Of a stretch of 12,666 nt of DNA, positions 49 through 11,736 are shown one piece after another. The notes beneath the pieces were generated by a model, which saw only the letters and a program-made list of their open reading frames with translations, searched no databases and was not told where the DNA came from. This stretch comes from an uncultured Victivallales bacterium. GTDB taxonomy: Bacteria; Verrucomicrobiota; Lentisphaeria; Oligosphaerales; JAFGRS01. The stretch covers positions 1 to 12,666 of the forward strand of contig CAILKC010000724.1 in NCBI GenBank assembly GCA_903834675.1. Direction: 5' to 3'. The first letter of the stretch is position 1; each line of letters begins with the position of its first letter. A program made the position numbers and the translations under genes.

Positions 49-1185
49 TCAGGCGCCAACCGGGGCGGCCCCGCAGCGTTGAGCCAGGCGGGTGACCCCC
101 GTGGTGTTAACGGCGCAAGCTAACGTGGGAATCCAGGCTAGGACGGCGGCGACTGCCCAGCGCGGGAAACGGGCCTGATGGCGGGCGATCTGGCTGGCCA
201 TCTCCGCGAGATGCTCTGCGGAGAGACCGCGCGGCGGGGCGGGCGCTGCCATCCGGGCTTGACGGAGGTCGGTTGCCGGGACTGTCTCTCCCCGACGGCG
301 CACGGCCTGAGGTGCGGTGGCCTGGCTCGCCGTTGGCCCCAGTATCTTGCCCCAGTCCGGCGTGCGTCCGAATCGGGCGCACTCGGCCAACTCGCCTGTT
401 GCCGTCCCGAGCGGCCCCATCGTCAGGTCCAGTACCAGCGCGCCGGGCGTGCGTCGGACTGCCTCGATGGGTTCCGCATCCTTGGCGGCGCAACAGCGCC
501 AGAGGCAAGTCGACTTCAGGGAAGCCCGTTGGAGGTACGTGTTGAACGTGACGTCCCAGCGCCGCGCCTCGGGCAGGAAAGCCAGGGCTTCGGCAATCAG
601 GCGAACCATGGCATCGGGGTCCGGCAGGTTGCGCGGCTCGAAAACGATGCATGCCGGCGCGCCATTACCGTCGAGGACATGCTGAGCCAGCGCGCCAGCC
701 CAGCCCGCGTCGCCTGCGAGGTCCTGCCAGGCGACTGCCGGGGCGATCTCTCCCTTGATGTCAGGAATTTGCGCCGGTTGCGGGATGGCATGCGGGGCAT
801 CGTTCCACTCACGGCAGAAAAGGCCTGCCGCCGCTGTCATCAGGGCTGCCGGCCCACCAGCAGACATGCGCTCGTCTTGTGGGTCGACCACCAGGTGGTG
901 CGCCAGGTAGTTTGACCGTCCCGAGTAGTCAGGGGCGTAGCAGGCGATTCTTGAGAGGACGGAAAGATCCTGGTCGCCAACGGTCACCCGGTAGTGCGAG
1001 TGGGCCGTGGGGTTTTTCGCGTAGAGCGGGTCGCTGACCCGGAAGCAGGCGTTGTAGAAGCTTAGCTCCTCGCACAACTCGACGTAGCTGGCAGACATGC
1101 CTTGCGTGTAGGCGACCGTGCTGTAACCTTGGCTTCCCCGCCGCAAACCCTTGGGAACCGAAGTATGAATCAGCTCAAACGCCAT
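49..1185 (-). CDS. GAP1-N2-like GTPase-associated protein
   Basis: This 378-residue protein opens with LIHTSVPKGLRRG and YSTVAYTQGM (residues 5-30), and has GRSNYLAHHLVV (89-100) and RWDVTFNTY (219-227). This pattern is characteristic of the N-terminal domain (type 2) of GTPase-associated protein 1, a family described in GTPase-centred conflict systems; its biochemical activity is unknown. Family members I know of are often longer, with middle and C-terminal GAP1 domains. This one ends soon after the N2 region with an Ala/Pro-rich linker and a hydrophobic segment (WAVAAVLAWIPTLACAV, about 352-368) that could anchor it in the membrane. I chose the ATG at 1185 rather than the one at 1209 because GGGGGAG lies 8 nt upstream and the family motif begins at once. 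It lies 120 bp downstream of the FHA-GTPase gene on the same strand, so co-transcription is likely. The gap holds a 6-bp GC stem (1214-1219/1224-1229). Confidence 0.8.
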   Translation of the reverse strand: MAFELIHTSVPKGLRRGSQGYSTVAYTQGMSASYVELCEELSFYNACFRVSDPLYAKNPTAHSHYRVTVGDQDLSVLSRIACYAPDYSGRSNYLAHHLVVDPQDERMSAGGPAALMTAAAGLFCREWNDAPHAIPQPAQIPDIKGEIAPAVAWQDLAGDAGWAGALAQHVLDGNGAPACIVFEPRNLPDPDAMVRLIAEALAFLPEARRWDVTFNTYLQRASLKSTCLWRCCAAKDAEPIEAVRRTPGALVLDLTMGPLGTATGELAECARFGRTPDWGKILGPTASQATAPQAVRRRGETVPATDLRQARMAAPAPPRGLSAEHLAEMASQIARHQARFPRWAVAAVLAWIPTLACAVNTTGVTRLAQRCGAAPVGA

Positions 1186-1305
1186 AGTTCGGTCTCCCCC
1201 GTCTCGCATGCCTGGGCGCGGGGGCGCCCACCCGTAGCCTCAGGCGCTTTGACAGTAGGCGTCAGACATCCATGCGAGGGCCGATCTTGCGTGGCGTCAC
1301 GTAGC

Positions 1306-3354
1306 TCAGAGCGGCTGCACTCCGTCGATTCTCGGCACCCGGAAGCGAACTCTGCTGATCGGCGCTTGGATCAGGTAGCCACCGTAGGCCGGCGGTACGT
1401 CGACAATCTCCTCAGTGCCCGGCACGGTGATCCTGAGATTCAGTCCTGCCTTCTGGTAATCCTGCGCTTCGGGGCAGGATTCGTCTTGGGTGTGGCTTGC
1501 CCCAATCAGGCCGAGGCAGCAGAGAAGGTACAGCAACGGCACCTCAACCCATTTGGTCTTGATGTCGCACGGACGGACGGCGGCATATGGGTTAGCCTCC
1601 CGTGTGCTACTCGCGTCGGCGGCTGGCAGAGTCGCGGGCTCGGCCGCGGGGCAGTGCCCCAACGCCGACACCGGCACGTAGATCACGCGGTCCGCCAGGG
1701 CCTCGAGAGTCCGGACGATCAGCGGCGCGTACTCCAGCAGGAGCGCACGCACATGGAACGACATGGCGACCAACCTGTCCATATCCAGCAGATGCACCCC
1801 GGCTTCCCGGTCCCAGCGCCACGGGTTCTCGCCGAAATCAACCATGGATCCAAGCAGGTCGGCTTTCGACACGCAGAGCACGAGCGGACGCTGCAGGCGC
1901 TCCGCGGCCCTCAGCCCCTCATGCCTACGGATGCGACTTATCATCTCGTAGAGTAGGACGTGCTGTTGCGATGTCGGGGTACCGGGCCCGATCGTGTAGC
2001 CGGCCGCGGTGACCGCACGGCGCAGCCCGGGGTCCAGCACCGGGTCAACCATGAAGATGATTCCTTCCGCGCGCACCAGGTGCTGGGTGCCGGGTTCTTT
2101 GAGTACGTCGGCGCCTGGAAGGAACTGCTCGCCGGCGTTGTCATAGAACACTACCAGCTTATGGTCGGACGGTTCCGTGGTCGCGAGAGACTGCGGCCTC
2201 AGGCTGAAGAGACACGGGCGCGGCAGATGCAGTTCGACGCCATTTACCCTGACAGATCGGTACATTTCGCCGCCCATGAGTGTCTTGTCGATCTTCTGGG
2301 GTTGGGCGGGATCAGCCTGGTCGAACAGCAGGTTCTCATACTCGTTCAGCCAGCTGTTGGTCGCGCCGTCAACATCCCCAAAGTAGTAGAAGAAAGACGA
2401 CGGCATCGTGTCTCTCAGCCGCCGACTCATGGCGGCTAGGAAGAAGGACTTGCCGCTGGCCGGGGCCCCCACGATGGAGACGAATAGCGGCGAAGCTGTC
2501 CTGAGTTCCTGAGGCAGGGCGAGATGGCACCTGGGACAGGCCAACTGGCCACAGGGATGGCCGTATGCGTCCATGCCGTCGCCGGTATGGGGGTCGTACT
2601 CCTCCGGAGAGAACCGGAGCTGTTCGTCGGGACCGGCAACCGGATCGCCACGCAACTCGGGTGCCTCGGAGACATAGAGGAAATCCCTGCTGTCAAAACG
2701 CCACCAGCAGTGTGGACAGATGATCCGACCCTCGCGGGACACAACCCATGGCCCGGTTCTTGGTCCGTCCGGTTCGGAGCCGGTGTCCGGGAACAGGTCA
2801 GGCACCACGGCCAGAGCCTCCCAGCGCTCCGCCGGGGTATCTCGCTGCCAGGCCAAGTCGTGCGGACCGATCTCCCCCCTCTCCGCTGCCTCGGTGAACT
2901 CCTGCTTCGTCATGGGACAGTCGGCAAGCCCCTCACGATGGACAATCCAGGTCCGGTCGTCCGACGGGCTCTCGCCGGTAGGGTGGGTCGCTTGGCTCAT
3001 CTCGCGCCCGTACTGTTCGGCTTCCGTGTCGCCACAGAAGCGGAGGAGAAACGTGAAGCCCATCCCGGCTGTGACAACGGCACCGTTCACCCGGCCAACC
3101 CAGGCACGTCTGGTCGGCTGGCCGTCGACTGTCGTCCCGGTCGCAGTACCCGAGTCCCTGACGGCCAGGGACTGGCCGACGGAACTGATCTGCAAGTGTT
3201 CATCTGCGAGCCTGGGATCATCGACCCGCACGTCGCAACCCATCCCCCGGCCCACGATCACGGGGAAAGCCGTCAAAGCCCTGATCGGTTCAGCACTGTC
3301 GACCGGGACGAAGTACCACTGCTTCTTGGGCTTCTTGGGACCAAACAGCGGCAT
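1306..3354 (-). CDS. FHA - GYF-like - zinc ribbon - P-loop GTPase - TM protein (double-GTPase 2-like)
   Basis: This 682-residue multidomain protein probably couples a recognition module to a GTPase switch. In order: a Lys-rich start (MPLFGPKKPKK); an FHA fold at about 12-107 with GRG at 35-37 but degenerate phospho-binding loops (A50 instead of Ser before H53; TGTT instead of NGT); a GYF_2-like domain at about 135-188 (TWIVHREG...W); paired Cys motifs CPHC (213-216) and CPRC (273-276) forming a likely zinc ribbon; then a GTPase domain with P-loop GAPASGKS (296-303), DNAGE at 405-409 (G3), SKAD at 496-499 (G4) and SAL at 563-565 (G5). A hydrophobic segment at about 603-619 (VEVPLLYLLCCLGLIGA) and a beta-rich tail follow. 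The GTPase part looks like the double-GTPase 2 group found with GAP1 proteins, and a GAP1-N2 gene is indeed next. An ATG at 3453 is also in frame, but the one at 3354 is preferred because AGAGGAAG lies just upstream and the FHA domain starts soon after. Confidence 0.8.
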   Translation of the reverse strand: MPLFGPKKPKKQWYFVPVDSAEPIRALTAFPVIVGRGMGCDVRVDDPRLADEHLQISSVGQSLAVRDSGTATGTTVDGQPTRRAWVGRVNGAVVTAGMGFTFLLRFCGDTEAEQYGREMSQATHPTGESPSDDRTWIVHREGLADCPMTKQEFTEAAERGEIGPHDLAWQRDTPAERWEALAVVPDLFPDTGSEPDGPRTGPWVVSREGRIICPHCWWRFDSRDFLYVSEAPELRGDPVAGPDEQLRFSPEEYDPHTGDGMDAYGHPCGQLACPRCHLALPQELRTASPLFVSIVGAPASGKSFFLAAMSRRLRDTMPSSFFYYFGDVDGATNSWLNEYENLLFDQADPAQPQKIDKTLMGGEMYRSVRVNGVELHLPRPCLFSLRPQSLATTEPSDHKLVVFYDNAGEQFLPGADVLKEPGTQHLVRAEGIIFMVDPVLDPGLRRAVTAAGYTIGPGTPTSQQHVLLYEMISRIRRHEGLRAAERLQRPLVLCVSKADLLGSMVDFGENPWRWDREAGVHLLDMDRLVAMSFHVRALLLEYAPLIVRTLEALADRVIYVPVSALGHCPAAEPATLPAADASSTREANPYAAVRPCDIKTKWVEVPLLYLLCCLGLIGASHTQDESCPEAQDYQKAGLNLRITVPGTEEIVDVPPAYGGYLIQAPISRVRFRVPRIDGVQPL

Positions 3355-3740
3355 ACCTGGGCTCTTCCTCTGCCTTAGCGGGACGCCATGCACAGGTCTC
3401 CCGACGTAACTGTGCCCGTGGGATCTCCCTCCCCAGGGTTCCGTCAGTTGCACAGGCTAGCCGTTCATGATCCTGAAGTCAAGGTACGTAGCTACGCGAT
3501 CGAGCGCGAGACACCAGGGCTGTTGATTAGCTAGGTTCGTAAGCCAAACATCAGTGCGACCACAGCGAATCTAAGAGCCGAGATGAACAGAGAACGTCCA
3601 GAGAACCAGGCCGAGCCACGCGATGGCCACCAACTGAAATGGTCCCAGGTCGCAAGGCACATGCACAGTTCGGGAGAGGATGAACACCGACTCGTCTGTG
3701 CTGGACGCGCTCGCTGGGTGCCAGATGCTGCGGAGCAGGT

Positions 3741-3762
3741 GAAATGGGGTGCTGGATGGGCG
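3741..3762 (+). repeat. Degenerate copy of the IS66 terminal repeat
   Basis: GAAATGGG...CTGGATGGG matches the left terminal inverted repeat of the IS66 element at 4109 in 17 of 22 ungapped positions and in the same orientation. It may be a decayed transposon end. G-richness makes a chance match possible. Confidence 0.3.
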
Positions 3763-3786
3763 GAGAAAGAGGCTCATTCGAGGCGA

Positions 3787-3856
3787 AAATGGCAGGTAAA
3801 ACCCAGGTGCCATTTGGTGCCACTTTCACCCCTGGAGGTGCCATTTTCTGCCATTT
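3787..3856. repeat. Phased GGTGCCATTT repeats bounded by an inverted repeat
   Basis: GGTGCCATTT (3806-3815), GGTGCCACTTT (3816-3826) and GGTGCCATTTT (3837-3847) are followed by a related CTGCCATTT (3848-3856). Their starts are 10, 21 and about 11 nt apart, so all face the same side of the helix. The block is bounded by the inverted pair AAATGGCAG (3787-3795) and CTGCCATTT (3848-3856). This is typical of a multi-site protein-binding region. Multi-copy end repeats of an IS21-type transposon relic are one candidate; an operator is another. No transposase is adjacent. Confidence 0.5.
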
Positions 3857-3961
3857 ACGGGGGGTTCTTTCCCGTGCGTAAGTTCAGCCAAATCCGCTAC
3901 TTTCGTAGCTAAATCTGGAAGAAATCGGGGGTTTTGAGGGAAAAAGGGAATAGGGTCAAGG

Positions 3962-4045
3962 TGCCGGAGGAGGGACTCGAACCCACACAACCTTTCGGTT
4001 ACCAGATTTTGAGTCTAGCGCGTCTGCCAATTCCGCCACTCCGGC
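3962..4045 (-). tRNA. tRNA-Leu (anticodon CAA)
   Basis: The reverse complement folds as a class II tRNA: acceptor arms GCCGGAG/CTCCGGC, D-arm with TGGCGGAATTGGCAGACGC, anticodon arm TAGA-CTCAAAA-TCTG giving CAA, a long variable arm (TAACCGAAAGGTTG) and a T-arm with GGTTCGAGTCC. It reads UUG leucine codons. The discriminator base is A (3962) and the next bases are CCT, so the complete CCA tail is not encoded and must be added enzymatically. It lies on the same strand as the leftward operon and 63 bp from the IS66 left end, with no other tRNA visible. Confidence 0.95.
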
Positions 4046-4060
4046 CAGAGTGTAGGGGGT

Positions 4061-4088
4061 AATTTAGGTCCCACAAGACCGAATGCAA
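4061..4088 (-). promoter_or_regulatory. Putative promoter of tRNA-Leu
   Basis: On the minus strand TTGCAT (4088-4083) and TAAATT (4066-4061) are 16 bp apart, and the second ends 15 nt before the tRNA 5' end. The match to sigma-70 consensus is only moderate; position is the main support. The IS66 left end is 20 bp further upstream, so the insertion left this promoter intact. Confidence 0.4.
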
Positions 4089-4108
4089 CCGCTCGGGCAA
4101 AGGCGGAC

Positions 4109-4130
4109 GTAATGGGTCACTGGATGGGGG
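4109..4130 (+). repeat. IS66 left terminal inverted repeat
   Basis: The 22 bp begin GTAATGGGTCAC and are the exact reverse complement of 5897-5918; the match stops at the 23rd base. This fixes the left boundary of the element. Confidence 0.92.
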
Positions 4131-4204
4131 ATAGGGGAGCCATTCGGCCGTTGTGGCCGGCGGCGTCGCCGACGGGTTTGGTCGCGAGCGCGGCGGCGCG
4201 GCGG

Positions 4205-5420
4205 TCAGCCGGTCGTGATGGCCGGTTCGTCGAAGAGGATAGTACCCATGTCGGGTGCCCGGTGAGGCTGGAGCGCGAGGGTGTCCAGGGTATTGGCGCC
4301 AGCCAGGGAATGGGAGCCGAAGCTGAGCTTGCGGGCAATCACCGAGGGGCGCAGGCCGCGTTCGGCGGTGTTGTTCTCGGCGGGTACCATGGGGTCTTCG
4401 ACCCAGTGGTAGAGTCTGTCGGCGTTCTCGCGGAAGATCTCCTGAAAGCTCTGTACGCCCGGATGCCTGGCGCTGCGCCCGACCGCCTCCAGTATCCTGT
4501 CCCTGAGGCGCCGTGCCTTGCGGCGGTAGTTGCGCAGGCGCCGCTCCCTGCGGCGCAGGGACCTCGAGCCCTTGAGGCGAGGAGCCAGCTGGTCGACGAA
4601 GGCCTTGACCTCCGGGTGGTCGGGGAAGTCCTTGAGCAGATCCTCCAGATCGCGCAGCAGATGGGCGTAGCAGTACTGGCGCCTGATGGGCAGGCCGTTG
4701 TAGCCGGCGTAGCGGTCGGTGACCGGCACCCCCAGCAGTCTCAGGGAGCCCAGCAGTTCCTGCGGCACGGTGCCGGCGCGGGTAGCACGGAAAGCATCAT
4801 GGACGACGGTGTCGAAGGATCGCAGCATCCAGGCGTAACCGCGGACCCGGTCGTTGCGCCAGGTGGTCTCGTCGCCGAAGATCACGGAGGCGGCCCTGAG
4901 CTGTTCGAGCCGTCGGGGCAGCGACGGGGGAGCCGGGAGCAGCAGATCGGGGAGGGCGCGCATCTGCGTGGCGGCGCGGCGGCCGGGTCCTTCGTGCCGC
5001 TTCTTCGCGCCGCCTTTGCGGGCCTGGTTCTCGGCGCTGGCACGGGCCTTGAACGGTTCTTTCGACGTAACTACTCAGGTTACAACTCAGGTGCATTCCC
5101 CTGCCCCAACGGGGCTGTGGCTCAGAGCCCAGGGTTGCGGCCATGGTGCCGCTACCCTGGGTCACATGGGGTCATGGCCTCCTACCCCAACGGGGTTGCG
5201 TCTTGGCACCCTGACCCAACCCTGTTGGGGCAGGATACGCAGGTGCACCTGAGTCGTCACCTTTCGACGACGAGGCCGATGAACCGAAGGGCTTCGCGTG
5301 GATATGGCGGTCCTGCCGCCCCAGGGTCTCTTTCAGACGCGCCACCTGGGCCCTGAGCTGAACGCGCTCGCGCTTCAGCCGGTCGATCTGCCGCATCATC
5401 TCCACGCAGCCGTTGCACAT
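4205..5420 (-). pseudogene. tnpC: IS66 DDE transposase (tnpC type), split by MITE insertion
   Basis: The N-terminal part starts at ATG 5420 (MCNGCVEMM) with a coiled coil (RQIDRLKRERVQLRAQVARL) and the family motif HAKPFGSSASSSK. It then runs into the MITE and stops at 5172. The rest resumes in another frame at EPFKARASAENQ (from about 5058) and reaches 4205. It holds the catalytic residues: Asp in FGDETTWR (codon at 4873), Asp in VTDRYAGY (4717) and Glu in NNTAERGLR (4363). Removing the MITE and one 8-bp duplicate (202 bp) rejoins SSSK and EPFK in one frame and gives a 337-residue protein. That is still shorter than usual IS66 transposases (around 500): the middle region with the Cys-rich zinc-binding part is not visible, so an older in-frame deletion probably preceded the MITE. 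Confidence 0.88.
5067..5260. mobile_element. 194-bp foldback MITE of IS66 type
   Basis: The element is flanked by perfect 8-bp direct repeats CTTTCGAC (5059-5066 and 5261-5268), the duplication length made by IS66 transposases. Its ends are imperfect inverted repeats: GTAACTACTCAGGT on the left against GTGACGACTCAGGT read in from the right. Inside are further inverted pairs: CTGCCCCAAC (5101-5110) with GTTGGGGCAG (5224-5233), and a central 15-bp hairpin with 13 matches (5127-5141/5148-5162). CCCCAACGGGG occurs twice (5104-5114, 5185-5195). It carries no gene and must be moved by a transposase supplied elsewhere. The ends differ from those of the host IS66, so it depends on a different family member. 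Confidence 0.88.
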
Positions 5421-5440
5421 TCGCAGATCCCGCAGAGCCC

Positions 5441-5731
5441 TCAGCGCTGCCCCCCTCGGCTGCGCACGAACTGGGCCCCTGCCTCGAACAGCAGCCGGTC
5501 GATACTGCGGCCGTTCTCCAGCCGTCGACGCAACTCCGGCACCAGATCCCGCGGCACGTGCAGGCAGCGCCGCCGCCCCTCGGCGTCGGCGTACACGTAG
5601 ATAAAGGAAGGGTGGCGCTCGCCCGCGGCGCACTTCGCACAGCCTTTGCGGGTGCAGGGCTTGCGCACCTCCGCGACGGTGCCACGTGCGGCGGGCAGAT
5701 GTTCAGCGATTTGTGCCGCCAGGTCTTTCAC
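5441..5731 (-). CDS. Small IS66-associated protein (DUF6788-like)
   Basis: This 96-residue protein has KPCTRKGCAKC (Cys 26, 31 and 34), a following RHPSFIYVYADAEGRRRCLHVP and a helical C-terminus. This is the look of the small DUF6788-type proteins coded just ahead of some IS66 transposases; the role is unknown, possibly nucleic-acid binding given the Cys cluster and basic character. The start is GTG at 5731, with GGGAGG 9 nt upstream. Its stop (5441) is 20 bp before the transposase ATG (5420), so the two are probably translationally linked. A frameshift fusing the two frames cannot be excluded. Confidence 0.62.
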   Translation of the reverse strand: MKDLAAQIAEHLPAARGTVAEVRKPCTRKGCAKCAAGERHPSFIYVYADAEGRRRCLHVPRDLVPELRRRLENGRSIDRLLFEAGAQFVRSRGGQR

Positions 5732-5772
5732 GGCACCGACCTCCCGGCCTGGAGCAGGCAGATATATACGCT

Positions 5773-5801
5773 ATGCTATACATGCTCTTTGGGAAAGTCA
5801 A
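5773..5801 (-). promoter_or_regulatory. Putative promoter of the IS66 genes
   Basis: On the minus strand TTGACT (5801-5796) is followed after 17 bp by TAGCAT (5778-5773), about 40 bp before the GTG start at 5731. The -35 box matches consensus in 5 of 6 positions. A second AT-rich stretch (TATAGC, TATATA) overlaps, so the exact -10 box is uncertain. Confidence 0.5.
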
Positions 5802-5896
5802 GAGGCTTCTGCGCGTTTCCATAAAATTCGTCACGGGTGGAATCGATGACCCGCGCGGTAGAACCCAGGGCGACCCCGGCCCCAAACCAGCAGGCC

Positions 5897-5918
5897 CCCC
5901 CATCCAGTGACCCATTAC
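5897..5918 (-). repeat. IS66 right terminal inverted repeat
   Basis: This is the exact reverse complement of 4109-4130 and marks the right boundary of the element. The adjoining host sequence GAAGAGCC does not duplicate the left flank. Confidence 0.92.
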
Positions 5919-5937
5919 GAAGAGCCTGGTATTCGAC

Positions 5938-5967
5938 TTGACTTCCAACCTTGGCATCCTGTACAGT
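5938..5967 (+). promoter_or_regulatory. Putative promoter of the rightward arm
   Basis: TTGACT (5938-5943), an 18-bp spacer and TACAGT (5962-5967) lie about 100 bp before the GTG start of the zinc-ribbon/FHA gene, giving a leader of roughly 95 nt. The site begins 20 bp outside the IS66 right end, so the insertion sits just upstream of it and may have removed upstream control sequence. Confidence 0.45.
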
Positions 5968-6069
5968 AATGTTTGTAACGAGAGAAGTTCCCGCTTCGTT
6001 CCTGGGTCCTGCCGATGGGGTGCGGGCTGGGTCGACGGGGGGTCCAGACGCTGGGAGAGTTAGATAACC

Positions 6070-7065
6070 GTGCCTACGACCAGTTGTCCGTTCTGTGGCG
6101 AGCCTGCGTCAGGTACCGGTTGCGCGCGCTGCGGTAGCCAGGGGGCGCGCTGGGTCGCTTTTGACCTACGGCAACTTCGCGTTCGCACTATCGCCATGAG
6201 TGAGGCGATGGCGGCGGAACCGCCCCGTCCCGCGGCAGGGTTGAAGCCAGATGGCGTGACGCTGCTGGGCTATGTGCTGGACTTGTCGAAAGCGACGGGT
6301 CGCGACCGGATCCCTATACGCAAGCAGCGGACCGTTATCGGCAAAGGGAAAAATTGTGACGTGATTGTGCAGGAACGCCCTCTCTGCGACTTCATCTCGA
6401 AGGAACACGCCACGCTCAAGTTTGAGGAGGGCAGATTCTACTTGGAGGACCTCGCCTCGAAAAATGGGACGAAACTCGCCAGCAAGTCGTTGCAGCCAGG
6501 CTCTCCCGCAGAGCTAACTGATGGCGCCACGTTCTCGCTGTATACGGTGCCCTTTCAGGTCGAGTACGCTGCGGTTCCCCCGGCAGCGCCGGGCGACACG
6601 GCTCCTGTGGCGATCCCGCGGCTAGAGGTCCCCGACGACCCGGTGGCGAAGGATCTGCACAGCATCCTCTGTGCGCTGCCAGTCACCCGACCGCTCGGCG
6701 GCGCGCAGGAGGCGATGCCTGACTACGTGAAGCTCAATCTTGCCACCGTCCTGGCAGATCGCGCCTTGAGCATGATCCTCCTGCGGCTGTTCCGCGCTGG
6801 CAAGCCAGTACGACCGCAGGGGCCCTGGCTTGCTGTGCAAGAAGGAGCCGTAGGCTTATTGGATGTGGTCAGAACCAACGAGTGTGAATTTTGGATTTCC
6901 GCTTTCGCCTTTGACCGCCTGGACGCCTTGCCGCTGGTCGAGATCCCTCTTGAGAGCGCGGAGGGCGAGAAAGTGCAGCAGAGCACCGCCAAAGAACGAC
7001 TTCCCTATGTTGTCGTGTTGTCAAGCAGCGGCTCGCCGCTGGGAGACGCGCACCCAGACCACTGA
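6070..7065 (+). CDS. Zinc-ribbon and FHA-domain protein
   Basis: This 331-residue protein is probably a phosphothreonine-reading adaptor. It starts with a compact zinc ribbon (C6-x2-C9 and C18-x2-C21). After a linker comes a canonical FHA domain (about 82-166) with IGKG (90-93), S110 and H113 in SKEH, and N132-G-T, the residues that normally hold phosphothreonine. Residues 180-331 are not recognised; they are mixed helix and strand with no transmembrane segment. The start is GTG, with GGAGAG 10 nt upstream; an internal start at M43 would lose the zinc ribbon, so GTG is preferred. It leads the rightward arm. FHA proteins occur both in GTPase-centred conflict loci and in type VI secretion clusters, and the following genes suit either setting. 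No kinase that could supply its ligand is in the window. Confidence 0.85.
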   Translation: MPTTSCPFCGEPASGTGCARCGSQGARWVAFDLRQLRVRTIAMSEAMAAEPPRPAAGLKPDGVTLLGYVLDLSKATGRDRIPIRKQRTVIGKGKNCDVIVQERPLCDFISKEHATLKFEEGRFYLEDLASKNGTKLASKSLQPGSPAELTDGATFSLYTVPFQVEYAAVPPAAPGDTAPVAIPRLEVPDDPVAKDLHSILCALPVTRPLGGAQEAMPDYVKLNLATVLADRALSMILLRLFRAGKPVRPQGPWLAVQEGAVGLLDVVRTNECEFWISAFAFDRLDALPLVEIPLESAEGEKVQQSTAKERLPYVVVLSSSGSPLGDAHPDH

Positions 7066-7114
7066 GGATCGCCGCCGAAGCAGTTTGTAAAGCAAATCGC
7101 AGAAGCCAGACAAC

Positions 7115-7129
7115 AAGGCGCTTCGCCTT
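7115..7129 (+). other. Intergenic hairpin AAGGCG-CTT-CGCCTT
   Basis: A perfect 6-bp stem with a 3-nt loop lies 50 bp after the FHA stop codon, inside a looser outer pairing GCAGA/TCTGC. The following TTCTGCTTTAG is not a clean U-run, so it is at best a weak terminator or attenuator. The roughly 200-bp gap up to 7272 holds no gene I can support. Confidence 0.35.
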
Positions 7130-7271
7130 TCTGCTTTAGTGTAAACAGTGGATTGGGTTCTCATTGCCCCGGCCCTGTTGGACGGTGGCCCGAGTAAAGG
7201 ATGGAGTGGTTTTGTCTCCGCGACTTGACCACGTCCGAGCCGGAGCCTAACAGAAGGGGGGTATAACGCAC

Positions 7272-8474
7272 GTGTTGGAACGGATCCACTTCAAAGACGG
7301 CGAGATTCTCGAGGCCATCCAACTGAACCGGAGCCTCGACCGGGTTCAGATGGAGACCGGGCTTCGTGGCCTGGCCTTTGGGGTGGCTGGGTTTGGAGAC
7401 GGCGCGCGGATTGAGCTGGCGCTCGACGCTGACCGGAAGGGCGCGGTGAACGCCAAGTTCCTGAATACGGCCTTCTTCTTTCGCAGCGGTCGCGTGGTTA
7501 CCGTGTCCGAGAGTTCCTTCATCAAAGTCGCACTGGTGGGGAACCCGTCCTATCTTTGCGCCACGGCGGCGACATCAGCCCGACCGGACGGCTATATGGA
7601 AGCTGCGCCGGGAGCCTTGGCGGTCAGTTCCGTGGCAGACCTTCTGGATATGGACGGAGTGCATTCTGTGCCCTTTGCCTGTGTCCAAGTGCATGATGGC
7701 GCCGTGATCCGCAGTGTCGACCTTGATTTCATGTTACCCGAGATCAACCCCCGCTTGCGCTCCCTAGTGATCAACGCACCGCAGTTGGTGAACGGGAACC
7801 GTGTGGCGGGAGCGGTCCGAGAGTGCAGTGCCTTGGCAGTGCGGCTGCGCTCGACGGTGGTCAGCGATCCTGCGCTCCGCCTGAGCCCTGTAGCGTTCGA
7901 ACTGGGCGGACTTTCCCTACTGTTCGAGATGCATGCGGATGATCCACTCGAGCTGGTGCGTTCCGTCGTGTTACGCCTTAACAGTTGCGACCCACATGTT
8001 GTGACGGTCGCCGGCCGAGAGCGGGCCGAACTCGCAGGGCACCAGGCGAACCTACGCTTCGATCCCGAGGGGATCATGTTCCACCTTTACAGCCATTTCG
8101 CTGACATCAGGAGGCGTTTGCACCAGTATATGGAGTGGCTGCACGTGGAAACGGAGACCATCGCTCTGACGGAGCGCAGATCGGTGCCCCGACGGGCTCA
8201 GCACGCGCTGTATGAGGTGGTCAATCTCCCTGAGGGTTGGGCACATCTGACCATTCGGTTTCCGGATGTCAAAGCCAGCCGGGCCAAGCCATTCGTCAAT
8301 CTGGCGGCACATATCCACGACTTCAGCGACCAGCCCGCGATCGAGTTTGAGCGAAGAGAGGGTACGATCACCTGTGCGTACGCCTATCGTGGCCAGCGGA
8401 AGGTCGACGAGTATACAGGCGATGTTCCGCTTGTCTGGAGTCAGACGGCTGAAGCAGAATTTGCCTGCGAGTAG
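7272..8474 (+). CDS. TssK/baseplate-like protein (divergent)
   Basis: This 400-residue soluble protein has no signal peptide or membrane segment. I do not recognise it with certainty, but its layout resembles TssK, the type VI secretion baseplate adaptor. IHFKDGEILEAIQLNR (5-20) resembles the TssK and phage baseplate start (W/F-x-DG-x-L-x-x-x-x-x). GLAFGVAGF (33-41) is followed by a strand-rich segment NTAFFFRSGRVVTV (65-78). A turn DGAVIRSVDLDFMLPEINP (142-160) resembles the G-x-W-x-x-D-x-x-F-x-PP region of TssK. Then come FELGGLSLLFEM (209-220), the FDPEG segment (263-267) with a helix, and a beta-rich C-terminal domain (about 294-395) of tail-domain size. The start is GTG, with AAGGGGGG 10 nt upstream. 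In TssK the C-terminal domain contacts the membrane complex; here the partner might be the large GTPase encoded next. This rests on remembered patterns, not a search; an unrelated beta-rich adaptor is the main alternative. Confidence 0.5.
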   Translation: MLERIHFKDGEILEAIQLNRSLDRVQMETGLRGLAFGVAGFGDGARIELALDADRKGAVNAKFLNTAFFFRSGRVVTVSESSFIKVALVGNPSYLCATAATSARPDGYMEAAPGALAVSSVADLLDMDGVHSVPFACVQVHDGAVIRSVDLDFMLPEINPRLRSLVINAPQLVNGNRVAGAVRECSALAVRLRSTVVSDPALRLSPVAFELGGLSLLFEMHADDPLELVRSVVLRLNSCDPHVVTVAGRERAELAGHQANLRFDPEGIMFHLYSHFADIRRRLHQYMEWLHVETETIALTERRSVPRRAQHALYEVVNLPEGWAHLTIRFPDVKASRAKPFVNLAAHIHDFSDQPAIEFERREGTITCAYAYRGQRKVDEYTGDVPLVWSQTAEAEFACE

Positions 8475-8691
8475 GCCGCCACCGATGCGGCACAGCGGGG
8501 GTTATGCCCAAACCGCGGCCAGGTGTGGGGCGCGATGGAACGGTGGAGAGGCTTGGGGGTGACAGGGGCTTGTGATCGGGCCTGACACACCCAGAGGCCT
8601 ACCTTCCCACAGTGGTCTGTACTCGGTTTGCCAGCACGACGTCGCGGGAGCATGGGTGGACCATACTTCCGGACAAGGGCACGGTAGAAAA

Positions 8692-11600
8692 ATGGTCAGC
8701 AAACTCAGCAGTACGGTCATCCGGATACTCCAAGGTGAGCTTCAGGCCGCGATCCCCGACGTCCTGAAGTCACTGCTCGCGAGCGACGCTCTGGAGTTGC
8801 AGCGCCTCTGGCAGGACTGCTCTCAGCAGATGACGCTTCTGCCGTCCCCGGACCGTGAGGTCGGTCTATTTCGCGATCTGGCAACCTACTACCTTTACCA
8901 GAAGTCGGCCGAGTTCGAACCCGCCTCGAACCGCCAAACCCGCGACTGGTACGAGACGCAGCACTATCCAGCCAGCGGCGACCCGGAACGCAGCATCGAG
9001 ACCACTCTTGAAGAGATCAAGTTCAGCAACCAGGATTTCTTTGTCCGCATTGTCGACGCGGCCAAGGATATTTTGCGCGTCAACCTGCGGGATCCTTACG
9101 AGCGTCTGATCACACGGGTGATTGCCAGCCCTGGCGTACCGCAGACGGAGATGCTGGTCAGGGCCATCAACTTCGTCTTCACTAGCGAGCAAGCTGACCG
9201 CAACAAACTGGCCGACTGTTTTGTGGCTCAGAGCGTGGCCCCGGAACAGGCCGTATTGGAGCTGCAGTTGTTCCTGCAGTTGGTCGTGTGCCTGTTGCAC
9301 AAGACAGAGGACTGCACTCCCGAGAACCGCAGCAAGATGAAACGGTGGGCAGACGAGTACCTGTACGACTCGCAGTTGCTGCCCATCGCTATCGATGCGA
9401 ACTCTTCAGAACGCGATCTGCTGTACGGGATCGCGCTGCGGATATTCCAGTCCAGGATCGACAGTACCCTGAAGCTTGCGCTGTTTGCGGCCTTGGCGAA
9501 GCTCATGCTGAGGTTCAACACGACCCTGCCGGAGCGCTCGCGGACGGTCTACCGAAATGCGCTGTTCCTCTACCGCTTGGTGCAGGTAGTCCCCTTTGAA
9601 GAGTTCGATTTCGAGCACGTTCTGGAGACCGCGAATGCCGACGAGAAGGAACAACTCGTCAACGATTTCAGCAAAGTGCTCCTAACCATCAAGGATCTGG
9701 TGGCCCGCTACGTATCCACCATCGACATGGAGGCCCTGGAAGCAGATTGCAGTCTCCTGGATCGCTCGATCGGGGGTGAGTACACTCATCTGTCATTCTG
9801 GTCTTACTTGGATCGTGACGCCGTGATGTCGCGCATCCTCAGCAGCCATATGCGCGGGCTTTCCGAACCCCTGCAGTTGCTGAAACAGGAGTACGAGACG
9901 CAGTCCAAGAGACTGCTTGAGTTGGCGCGGATCCAGATTAAGGCACGCGCCGACCGGGATCGTTTCCGACACTACCTTGACACCTGGGTGCAGGCCACCT
10001 TCAATCAGGCCGTTATGGATCGTTTCGATGCAGACTACCGAGACCAGAGCCAGGCCGACGAGACCTTTGTTCACGTGATGCTGGCGCTGCTGATCCGCCA
10101 GGAGCCGGTCGTGGCCCTCGACGAAGCGATGCTCATCAAGCACTGGGAGAGTACCTACGAGCGGATCTACGAAGAGAGGTTCTTCCAGACCTTTGCAGAC
10201 TCGCGCCCCTTCGACTATGCACTGGATGCGTCTGGGTCCCACGAAGAACAGGAGTTCCTGCCGTCGTGGGAGAAGTTCAGCAACATGCTGGTCTGCAACA
10301 AACGCGATGACGTGCGGCAGTTGACGGACCCCGCGCGAGTGGACTTCGGGGTCGCCTATGTGGGCTTGTCCGGGGTCGGAAAGACGTGCATGCGCGCCTC
10401 CACGCTCAGCGGTTTCGATGATCCTCTCGCCTTCCGCGAGTTTGGTTTCCGCCTGCTGCGGGACACGGTAACCACGGCCAATATCGACGAGTTTGCGCGC
10501 AACGACGTCCGCCCAACGCCGCGACGACAGACCCAAGTGCCGACGCTCTATGAACTGTTGTTCACTCAGGAGGTGAGCCCGGCAGCGCCGGGGGCGACGT
10601 CCCCGGCACCCGCCAAGTACATTCCCGTTCCCGCCATCGTCAGCCAGTTGCCGAACCAAGGCAGGCGACTCTACCTGCACTTCATCGATACGGCGGGGGA
10701 GGACTTCTCGGCTGCAGGCTTCAGCGGTGCCGACCAGCGTTCTCTGCAGGCCGTGCAGAAGGCCCCGATCATTGTGGTTGTGTTGGATGCTTCGGCGCTT
10801 GTTCGGCAGGGGTTAGTCATGCTCAACACGATCAGTCAACTGCTCCAGCGACGGCTGGGCACGGCGGCCGACCGAGATTTGGGTCAGATCGTGATTTTCG
10901 CACTGAACAAAGTGGATTTGCTGGAACGCGAGGATTGGCCTAGCTTGAATCAGGATATCCTTCCTGGCGGGATGCCGATCCTGAGTGAAGATGTCTCCGA
11001 AGATGACCTCCGTCGCATCATCTTCTCCAACCCCGCGAACAACGCCAAGATCACCATTCAGAAGGCACTCCTGGCGTTCATCAATCTTTTCGGTCTGTTG
11101 ATCGCCGGGAAGGGGGCCGACCGGCAGGACGATTTCAACGTACATCGAAACCGTCTAGTGAACGTTTTCTGGGCCTTCTCGAAGTCCAGCGGCACTGCGG
11201 CGGTCGTGGGTGCCAAGGTACTCCCGAAGAACATGTTCGCCTGGGTCTATCAGTACTTGCGCAAGGCCTCCGACTACTACTTTGTCCTGAAGGAGGCGGA
11301 GGCTGAGAAGCGGGCGCTCCTCTGGGACCACTACAGTCGTGAGATCGCGAGGCTGAACGAGGTTTTTCTGAAGGTCAAATGGAACCTCGAGCACCAGCCC
11401 GACGACAACGCCCCGGCTGACGCCAAGCCCAAGCATGCACGGCGCGCCGACCTGAGAAGCAGCATTGACGGCTTCTGGCGGGAGATCCACGAGTCCTTGG
11501 GGCCGCTCAACCTCATCCTTCACCCTGACGTGGAAGACCCCTATGTGGCTTTGATGCAGGATATCCAAGCGCGCTGTCGGGAGATCAATGAGCGCCAGTT

Positions 11601-11736
11601 GAGCCTTTACGCGGATCGGGTGGACGTCGCGGTCCACCACGCCTTCGTTTCGGCCGACACCGAGGAACGCCTGAAGCGGATTGACGAGGATGCCAAGGCC
11701 AAGATCGCGGCGCTGGCGGCCGCGGCGACGGCGTGA
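8692..11736 (+). CDS. Large helical protein with embedded TRAFAC-like GTPase domain
   Basis: This 1014-residue protein has a GTPase core at about 550-830: P-loop GLSGVGKT (558-565), a possible switch I segment around RPTPRRQTQVPT, the G3 motif DTAGE (666-670) and the G4 motif NKVD (739-742). All guanine-binding motifs are intact, so it should bind and probably hydrolyse GTP. About 550 mostly helical residues precede it and about 180 helical, charged residues follow, ending in an Ala-rich tail; such arms suit a scaffold or oligomerising switch. The long P-loop to G3 spacing (about 100 residues) resembles the double-GTPase proteins of GAP1-type loci; a GASH-like helical domain is possible but not shown. 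No membrane segment is seen. An in-frame ATG at 8572 exists, but the first 40 residues look non-coding (Gly/His-rich), so the ATG at 8692 is preferred even though its SD is weak. It lies 217 bp after the TssK-like gene. Confidence 0.78.
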   Translation: MVSKLSSTVIRILQGELQAAIPDVLKSLLASDALELQRLWQDCSQQMTLLPSPDREVGLFRDLATYYLYQKSAEFEPASNRQTRDWYETQHYPASGDPERSIETTLEEIKFSNQDFFVRIVDAAKDILRVNLRDPYERLITRVIASPGVPQTEMLVRAINFVFTSEQADRNKLADCFVAQSVAPEQAVLELQLFLQLVVCLLHKTEDCTPENRSKMKRWADEYLYDSQLLPIAIDANSSERDLLYGIALRIFQSRIDSTLKLALFAALAKLMLRFNTTLPERSRTVYRNALFLYRLVQVVPFEEFDFEHVLETANADEKEQLVNDFSKVLLTIKDLVARYVSTIDMEALEADCSLLDRSIGGEYTHLSFWSYLDRDAVMSRILSSHMRGLSEPLQLLKQEYETQSKRLLELARIQIKARADRDRFRHYLDTWVQATFNQAVMDRFDADYRDQSQADETFVHVMLALLIRQEPVVALDEAMLIKHWESTYERIYEERFFQTFADSRPFDYALDASGSHEEQEFLPSWEKFSNMLVCNKRDDVRQLTDPARVDFGVAYVGLSGVGKTCMRASTLSGFDDPLAFREFGFRLLRDTVTTANIDEFARNDVRPTPRRQTQVPTLYELLFTQEVSPAAPGATSPAPAKYIPVPAIVSQLPNQGRRLYLHFIDTAGEDFSAAGFSGADQRSLQAVQKAPIIVVVLDASALVRQGLVMLNTISQLLQRRLGTAADRDLGQIVIFALNKVDLLEREDWPSLNQDILPGGMPILSEDVSEDDLRRIIFSNPANNAKITIQKALLAFINLFGLLIAGKGADRQDDFNVHRNRLVNVFWAFSKSSGTAAVVGAKVLPKNMFAWVYQYLRKASDYYFVLKEAEAEKRALLWDHYSREIARLNEVFLKVKWNLEHQPDDNAPADAKPKHARRADLRSSIDGFWREIHESLGPLNLILHPDVEDPYVALMQDIQARCREINERQLSLYADRVDVAVHHAFVSADTEERLKRIDEDAKAKIAALAAAATA

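Follow-up and report, generated by a model that had tools for sequence, protein, structure and literature searches.

A GAP1-N2 protein with a predicted longin-DENN fold and its DO-GTPase as a candidate switch for an envelope machine in an uncultured Victivallales bacterium

Introduction

GAP1 proteins were described in 2020 as the constant partners of DO-GTPases, which they are predicted to bind, and the systems that carry a GAP1-N2 domain were proposed to act in biological conflict; the passages of that description considered here give no biochemical activity for GAP1 (PMC7159879). Here we analyze a GAP1-N2 protein and its DO-GTPase from an uncultured Victivallales bacterium, encoded on contig CAILKC010000724.1 (GCA_903834675.1) in a stretch of 12,666 nucleotides, hereafter the window. 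Five long open reading frames (ORFs) surround a tRNA-Leu gene and an IS66-like element, with two ORFs forming a leftward arm and three a rightward arm. All five lie where a first-pass annotation, made from the sequence alone, had placed them, and their third codon positions are GC-rich (0.71-0.78). The GTPase-GAP1 pair of the left arm probably controls a machine in the cell envelope.

In the parts of PMC7159879 consulted, the published systems likewise have a zinc-ribbon DO-GTPase adjoining a GAP1-N2 plus GAP1-M protein and occur in planctomycetes and verrucomicrobia, with planctomycete GYF partners that contain a region rich in transmembrane (TM) segments. Compared with the systems in those parts, the window differs in that an FHA domain is fused to the GTPase and that no third GAP1 domain is detectable, and its relatives differ in their MotA/ExbB- or PilM-type partners. 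The terms MotA, ExbB, TolQ, PilM, pilus, longin, DENN and TagF are all absent from the main text of PMC7159879. A search of the open-access literature, with most subscription papers outside its scope, found no link of GAP1 to longin/DENN proteins or to TagF. The left arm is a variant of the known GAP1-N2/DO-GTPase system, and its new parts are the predicted fold and the pairing with an envelope machine.

Results

The left-arm GTPase and its family

The DO-GTPase gene (1306-3354, minus strand; 682 aa from an ATG at 3354, in an ORF that opens with GTG at 3453) carries a zinc ribbon and lies directly upstream of the GAP1 gene (49-1185, minus strand; 378 aa from an ATG at 1185, in an ORF that opens at 1209). 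In the GAP1 protein, GAP1-N2 (PF20013, 2e-21, 76.9 bits) and GAP1-M (PF20014, 1e-13, 51.8 bits) both score well over the Pfam cut-off of 24, and at E ≤ 1 Pfam yields nothing beyond these two domains. The GTPase contains an FHA domain (PF00498, 1.1e-6; 29.5 bits, cut-off 20.7) and matches DO-GTPase2 (PF19993, 1e-4) at 22.5 bits, under the cut-off of 27; PF19993 matches all 26 members of its family at E ≤ 0.01. The GAP1-N2 protein reported in the first-pass annotation, and its assignment of the arm to the GAP1-N2/DO-GTPase class, are borne out by these scores.

The 25 relatives are 25-39% identical to the window's GTPase, the closest being that of locus L122 (460 bits, 39% identity). The ten found first come from metagenome-assembled genomes of Lentisphaerota, Verrucomicrobiota and Planctomycetota, and the later ones from the same phyla. 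Across the 26 sequences the zinc-ribbon cysteines are invariant, and the P-loop, DNAGE and KxD positions invariant or nearly so. At E ≤ 0.01 an FHA domain is found on 14 members and a GYF domain on six. The FHA-GYF-zinc ribbon-GTPase-TM order proposed for this protein stands for its FHA, zinc-ribbon and GTPase parts; GYF is weak in the window (E = 0.012, under cut-off) and clear in L122 (1.2e-8), and the TM segment is unsupported, with a best 19-residue hydropathy of 1.77 and charged residues in the aligned stretch of the relatives. The G-domain reached an hhalign probability of 92% against the TssM NTPase; this match spans 17 P-loop columns only, and we therefore make no claim of a relation.

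FHA domains have three phospho-binding positions, which include the serine in SxxH and the asparagine in NG. The alignment shows other residues at these two of the three positions in the left GTPase, whose FHA domain is therefore probably not a phospho-reader.

Predicted fold of the GAP1 protein

The AlphaFold2 model of the GAP1 protein has block-mean pLDDT (predicted local distance difference test) values of 71-95 over residues 31-290. The model and its matches in a fold search reveal two predicted domains, one longin-like (ORF residues ~10-150) and one DENN-like (~155-290). A viral fold library gave no match to the model at E ≤ 0.001, no DENN family was among the Pfam matches at E ≤ 1, and no PDB sequence was matched.

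Over model residues 6-301, the two-domain arrangement matches that of the DENN regulators DENND1A/B, DENND10, FLCN-FNIP2, GATOR1 and C9orf72-SMCR8. Like these, GAP1 is paired with a GTPase, being encoded beside one; unlike them it is bacterial, its partner is a large multidomain DO-GTPase, and sequence similarity is undetectable. In the portions of the DENN paper PMC3521125 consulted, prokaryotic roots are drawn via MglB/Roadblock, and TagF is absent from its main text.

The window ends 48 bases past GAP1. A frameshift truncation of the gene was considered; the other frames offer no convincing extension, and no truncation needs to be assumed because the GAP1 ORFs of nine relatives are 308-361 aa long. 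Thirteen others are at least 639 aa, with L002 and L006, cut at a contig end, set aside from the count.

A motif in common with TagF

TagF, a repressor of type VI secretion, was likened to the longin domain of Sec22b in a passage of a 2012 paper (PMC3325213). In the sections of PMC5995506 considered, the FHA protein Fha is the binding partner of TagF. By the same account, repression by TagF does not depend on the threonine phosphorylation pathway, and Fha binding is lost when S79, D81 and R85 (P. aeruginosa numbering) are changed together; the molecular details of TagF were left to future work.

The Asp and Arg of this set are kept in 22/22 TagF sequences from the phylum of G009, at a spacing of four in 17 and of five in 5; the count covers 22 of 28 loci, as no ORF was picked in L160, L162, L163, L167, L174 and L176. 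GAP1 has Asp and Arg at a spacing of four in 21/22 sequences and Glu and Arg in the 22nd, counted on 22 of 23 sequences after L135 was dropped by the cutting rule. The Asp is residue 86 in the window's GAP1 (D86/R90 of the 378 aa, D94/R98 in ORF numbering) and residue 82 in the TagF of L151, and in the AlphaFold2 model D86 sits in a turn between two predicted strands. The window's GAP1 lacks the Ser of the binding set.

Gene order runs in parallel as well. TagF directly follows TssM in 19/20 chosen type VI secretion clusters, a figure biased by the choice of clusters for TssK-TagF closeness and with TssM checked by Pfam in 3/20, and GAP1 likewise follows the DO-GTPase. TagF and GAP1 have the predicted fold and the Asp/Arg motif in common, but their profiles do not match: PF09867 (TagF) gave no match to GAP1 at E ≤ 1, and profile-profile hhalign reached 0.1-0.4%, with wrong-frame ORFs in one of the two TagF sets used. 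Nor were type VI genes seen beside GAP1. Because TagF binds Fha, the Asp/Arg pair is common to both proteins and the TagF-TssM gene order is parallel, we infer by analogy that GAP1 may work like TagF and the DENN proteins, as a regulator that docks both FHA and GTPase.

The operon in relatives of the left arm

Gene neighborhoods were tabulated for 28 loci with left-GTPase relatives above 100 bits, excluding duplicates of longer loci and short loci that were not extended. GAP1 is present in 24 of them, and the other four end less than 300 bp after the GTPase. The conserved partners of the GTPase lie mostly downstream, the side on which the window breaks off. A protein of about 1000 aa, here called g3 (for example L003:13993-17100 and L125:11979-15050), is encoded beside the GAP1 gene in 21/21 loci with at least 4.5 kb downstream; the match in L120 is borderline, and the five g3 queries and the other partner queries were taken from these same loci and so match themselves. 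The order GTPase-GAP1-g3 holds in 20/22, with L001 and L005 deviating. No significant Pfam match was found for the two copies of g3 scanned.

Besides g3, two kinds of genes recur. MotA/TolQ/ExbB-type genes are found in 7/28 loci (L003:18048-20648, L001, L005, L007, L039, L126 and L131), with short neighbors of one TM segment in six of the seven. PilM-like genes are found in another 7/28 (L125:15257-18677, L119, L121, L124, L127, L129 and L133), with genes in the PilN and PilO positions in five of the seven. The labels PilN-like, PilO-like and ExbD-like denote gene position and weak matches only. No locus of the 28 combines the two types, and among the 15 loci with at least 7.5 kb downstream, L120, L122 and L130 have neither. 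The MotA/ExbB-type genes could possibly encode a GTPase-controlled stator. FNIII had no match among the sample of relatives' proteins scanned.

Other DO-GTPase2 matches were noted in passing. L116 (G227:C171) has two of them 3.5 kb apart, with, by eye, a protein of HSP70-like start nearby, resembling the HSP70 theme published for GAP1-N2 systems. In L041 and L044-L046 (phylum of G009), DO-GTPase2-matching proteins of about 900-1200 aa carry TM segments and have differing neighborhoods; near the one in L046 lies, by eye, a small FHA-like protein.

A candidate switch for an inner-membrane machine

We consider the chances about even that the left pair opens a GAP1-N2/DO-GTPase operon of the kind found in the Planctomycetota-Verrucomicrobiota-Chlamydiota (PVC) group, with a longin-DENN-type GAP1 switch gating an inner-membrane machine, and that the right trio is a separate cluster. 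The rest of the operon would lie beyond the left end of the window and may continue as in the relatives. In the proposed mechanism, the left GTPase would be a switch with an FHA and zinc-ribbon module, and GAP1 its bacterial longin-DENN-type regulator. The Asp...Arg loop in the longin-like half of GAP1 would provide the docking surface for FHA, as in TagF, while its two-domain face would bind the G-domain and set the nucleotide state. Acting through the product of the following gene, the ~1000-aa g3, the switch would gate how an inner-membrane machine is energized or assembled; among the relatives this machine may be a channel complex of the MotA/ExbB type or a platform of the PilM type.

The left pair could instead belong to an immunity or suicide system with effectors downstream, the relatives' MotA/ExbB genes forming a Zorya-like anti-phage motor. 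We regard this as rather unlikely. It agrees with the conflict role proposed for GAP1-N2 systems in the passages of PMC7159879 considered. A MotA/TolQ/ExbB-type protein, found in seven left-arm relatives and in six of them with short neighbors of one TM segment, is what these loci have in common with Zorya ZorA/ZorB and MotA/ExbB-type channels. The MotA-like protein of L003 weakly matches ZorA (NCBIfam 5.3e-6, PADLOC 1.7e-5), and one neighbor of one TM segment weakly matches ZorB (9e-4). The relatives are nevertheless unlike Zorya in their GTPase-GAP1 core, and in the one MotA-type set scanned the NCBIfam Zor matches fall far under their cut-offs. Known effector families were absent from the sample of relatives' proteins scanned, PilM-type partners do not point to immunity, and PADLOC run on the window proteins matched the left GTPase alone, weakly and at its P-loop (best E = 2.7e-4).

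The right arm as a separate cluster

The right arm encodes, on the plus strand, a zinc ribbon-FHA protein of 331 aa (6070-7065), an orphan protein of 400 aa (7272-8474) and a DO-GTPase2-like G-domain protein of 1014 aa (8692-11736, in an ORF that opens with GTG at 8572); about 200 bp separate each gene from the next. The first and last agree with the first-pass annotation: the FHA domain scores 54.8 bits (PF00498, 1.3e-14), and the large protein matches PF19993 at 28.4 bits against the cut-off of 27, as a distant DO-GTPase. The phospho-reading role given there to both FHA modules fits the right-arm domain, which looks canonical by eye, and is doubtful for the left one with its two replaced motif residues. 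Between the large GTPase and the left GTPase family, hhalign reached 61.9% over 178 columns with the alignments cut to the G-domain and 24.2% uncut.

The two arms had been read as one system split by a transposon. With phmmer at E ≤ 0.1, a right-arm homologue was found in 0/21 left-GTPase loci with at least 3.7 kb of upstream sequence, including 15 with at least 7.9 kb, and this reading is not upheld; phmmer --max returned one 62-aa ORF in L121 (E = 0.098), which lies on the opposite flank of the GTPase. A single assembly in which both GTPases and both FHA proteins join GAP1 and a baseplate-like protein, with only the tRNA and the IS66 element parting its genes, is improbable in our judgment. 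FHA domains and DO-GTPase2-like GTPases are indeed encoded in both arms, removal of the insertion sequence would bring the two start codons to within about 0.9 kb of each other, and codon usage is alike (left versus large right GTPase, r = 0.91), though a piece of the IS66 element also gives 0.91. According to the parts of PMC7159879 considered, 38% of the published systems contain a pair of paralogous GTPases; there, however, the second GTPase of the GAP1-N2 systems is multi-TM, unlike that of the window. The intergenic gaps of the right arm, like the missing homologues, speak against a single assembly.

Searches for right-arm relatives, a loose first look that may miss distant ones and whose negatives are weak evidence of absence, recovered only the queries themselves from the protein database, where 7995, 7994 and 5451 candidates were scored. 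No convincing relative came from viral contigs or phages, plasmids gave one match at E = 1, and 59 pattern-selected stretches of genome contigs contained no relative. Whole-genome searches with the 1014-aa GTPase gave 0/10, 0/337, 1/343 (E = 0.0099) and 2/23 (E ≤ 1), and further ones 8/240 at E ≤ 0.1 (best 0.0038); those with the 400-aa protein gave 0/2 at E ≤ 10 and 9/230 at E ≤ 0.1 (best 0.022). Searches with the FHA protein covered viral contigs and the collected loci. The right arm had six matches at E ≤ 0.1 (best 0.0013) across the full set of 197 loci, none of them in the 28 left-arm loci. As counterparts of the operon partners (g3, PilM/N/O, MotA, ExbD-like), the right-arm proteins reached an hhalign probability of at most 0.4%. 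Most likely, the trio forms a GTPase-FHA cluster of its own that is restricted to its lineage.

The 400-aa protein had been called TssK-like, a label for which all sequence and profile tests are negative; its likeness to TssK (PF05936) lies in length and a loosely similar N-terminus by eye only. No significant match was found in Pfam, NCBIfam, PHROGs, PADLOC or PDB sequences. Against 30 TssK proteins from the phylum of G009 the hhalign probability was 0.2%, and against a background of 75 ORFs and 300 shuffles the protein ranked 115/376 by hhalign and 66/203 among those listed by hmmsearch. Its single-sequence model is uninformative (mean pLDDT 33.5). A reading of the right arm as a divergent sub-module of type VI secretion or contractile injection, with a TagH-like FHA protein, a TssK-like adaptor and an NTPase replacing TssM, is very unlikely: the FHA region does score against TagH (TIGR03354, 2.7e-9; 37.3 bits, under the cut-off of 120.25), the 400-aa protein starts with a loosely TssK-like HFKDGEIL, and the left-arm GAP1 has a predicted fold and motif in common with TagF, but the TssK tests are at chance, the large GTPase has no IcmF/TssM Pfam match at E ≤ 1 and an hhalign probability of 1.8% to the TssM NTPase, and the 8 ORFs scanned by Pfam include no type VI family except FHA.

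DNA between the arms

The tRNA announced between the arms is a tRNA-Leu (CAA) gene at 3960-4045 on the minus strand (ARAGORN; Rfam RF00005, 53.8 bits). An island at the tRNA was considered; the 3' end of the tRNA is not repeated elsewhere in the window. The IS66-like element (4108-5919, no strand assigned) is bounded by perfect 23-bp terminal inverted repeats (4108-4130/5897-5919), and its transposase frame is interrupted and in pieces (PF03050, 1.6e-30 in 4205-4963). It belongs to no part of the GTPase system. The several transposons expected here reduce to this one element with its broken transposase and one extra, imperfect (81%) copy of the repeat end at 3743-3763, beside the left arm, which is perhaps a relic of another insertion. 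Between the two transposase pieces, 5100-5234 contains inverted repeats with CCCCAACGGGG-like cores, possibly a small repeat insertion inside the transposase.

Discussion

A longin-DENN fold would suggest an activity for GAP1 and predict the residues that touch FHA, and it would offer a mechanism for TagF. The pairing with MotA/ExbB- or PilM-type genes would shift GAP1 systems from generic conflict towards regulated envelope machines. More tentatively, and with the odds in our view well against it, GAP1 and TagF may be cousins, a longin-DENN protein, an FHA domain and a P-loop GTPase or NTPase forming one widespread control module for envelope machines, as TagF-Fha-TssM in type VI secretion and as GAP1-FHA-DO-GTPase in MotA/ExbB- and PilM-type machines. 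If so, TagF would regulate the nucleotide cycle of TssM, and a bacterial counterpart of the eukaryotic DENN module would already stand beside a GTPase.
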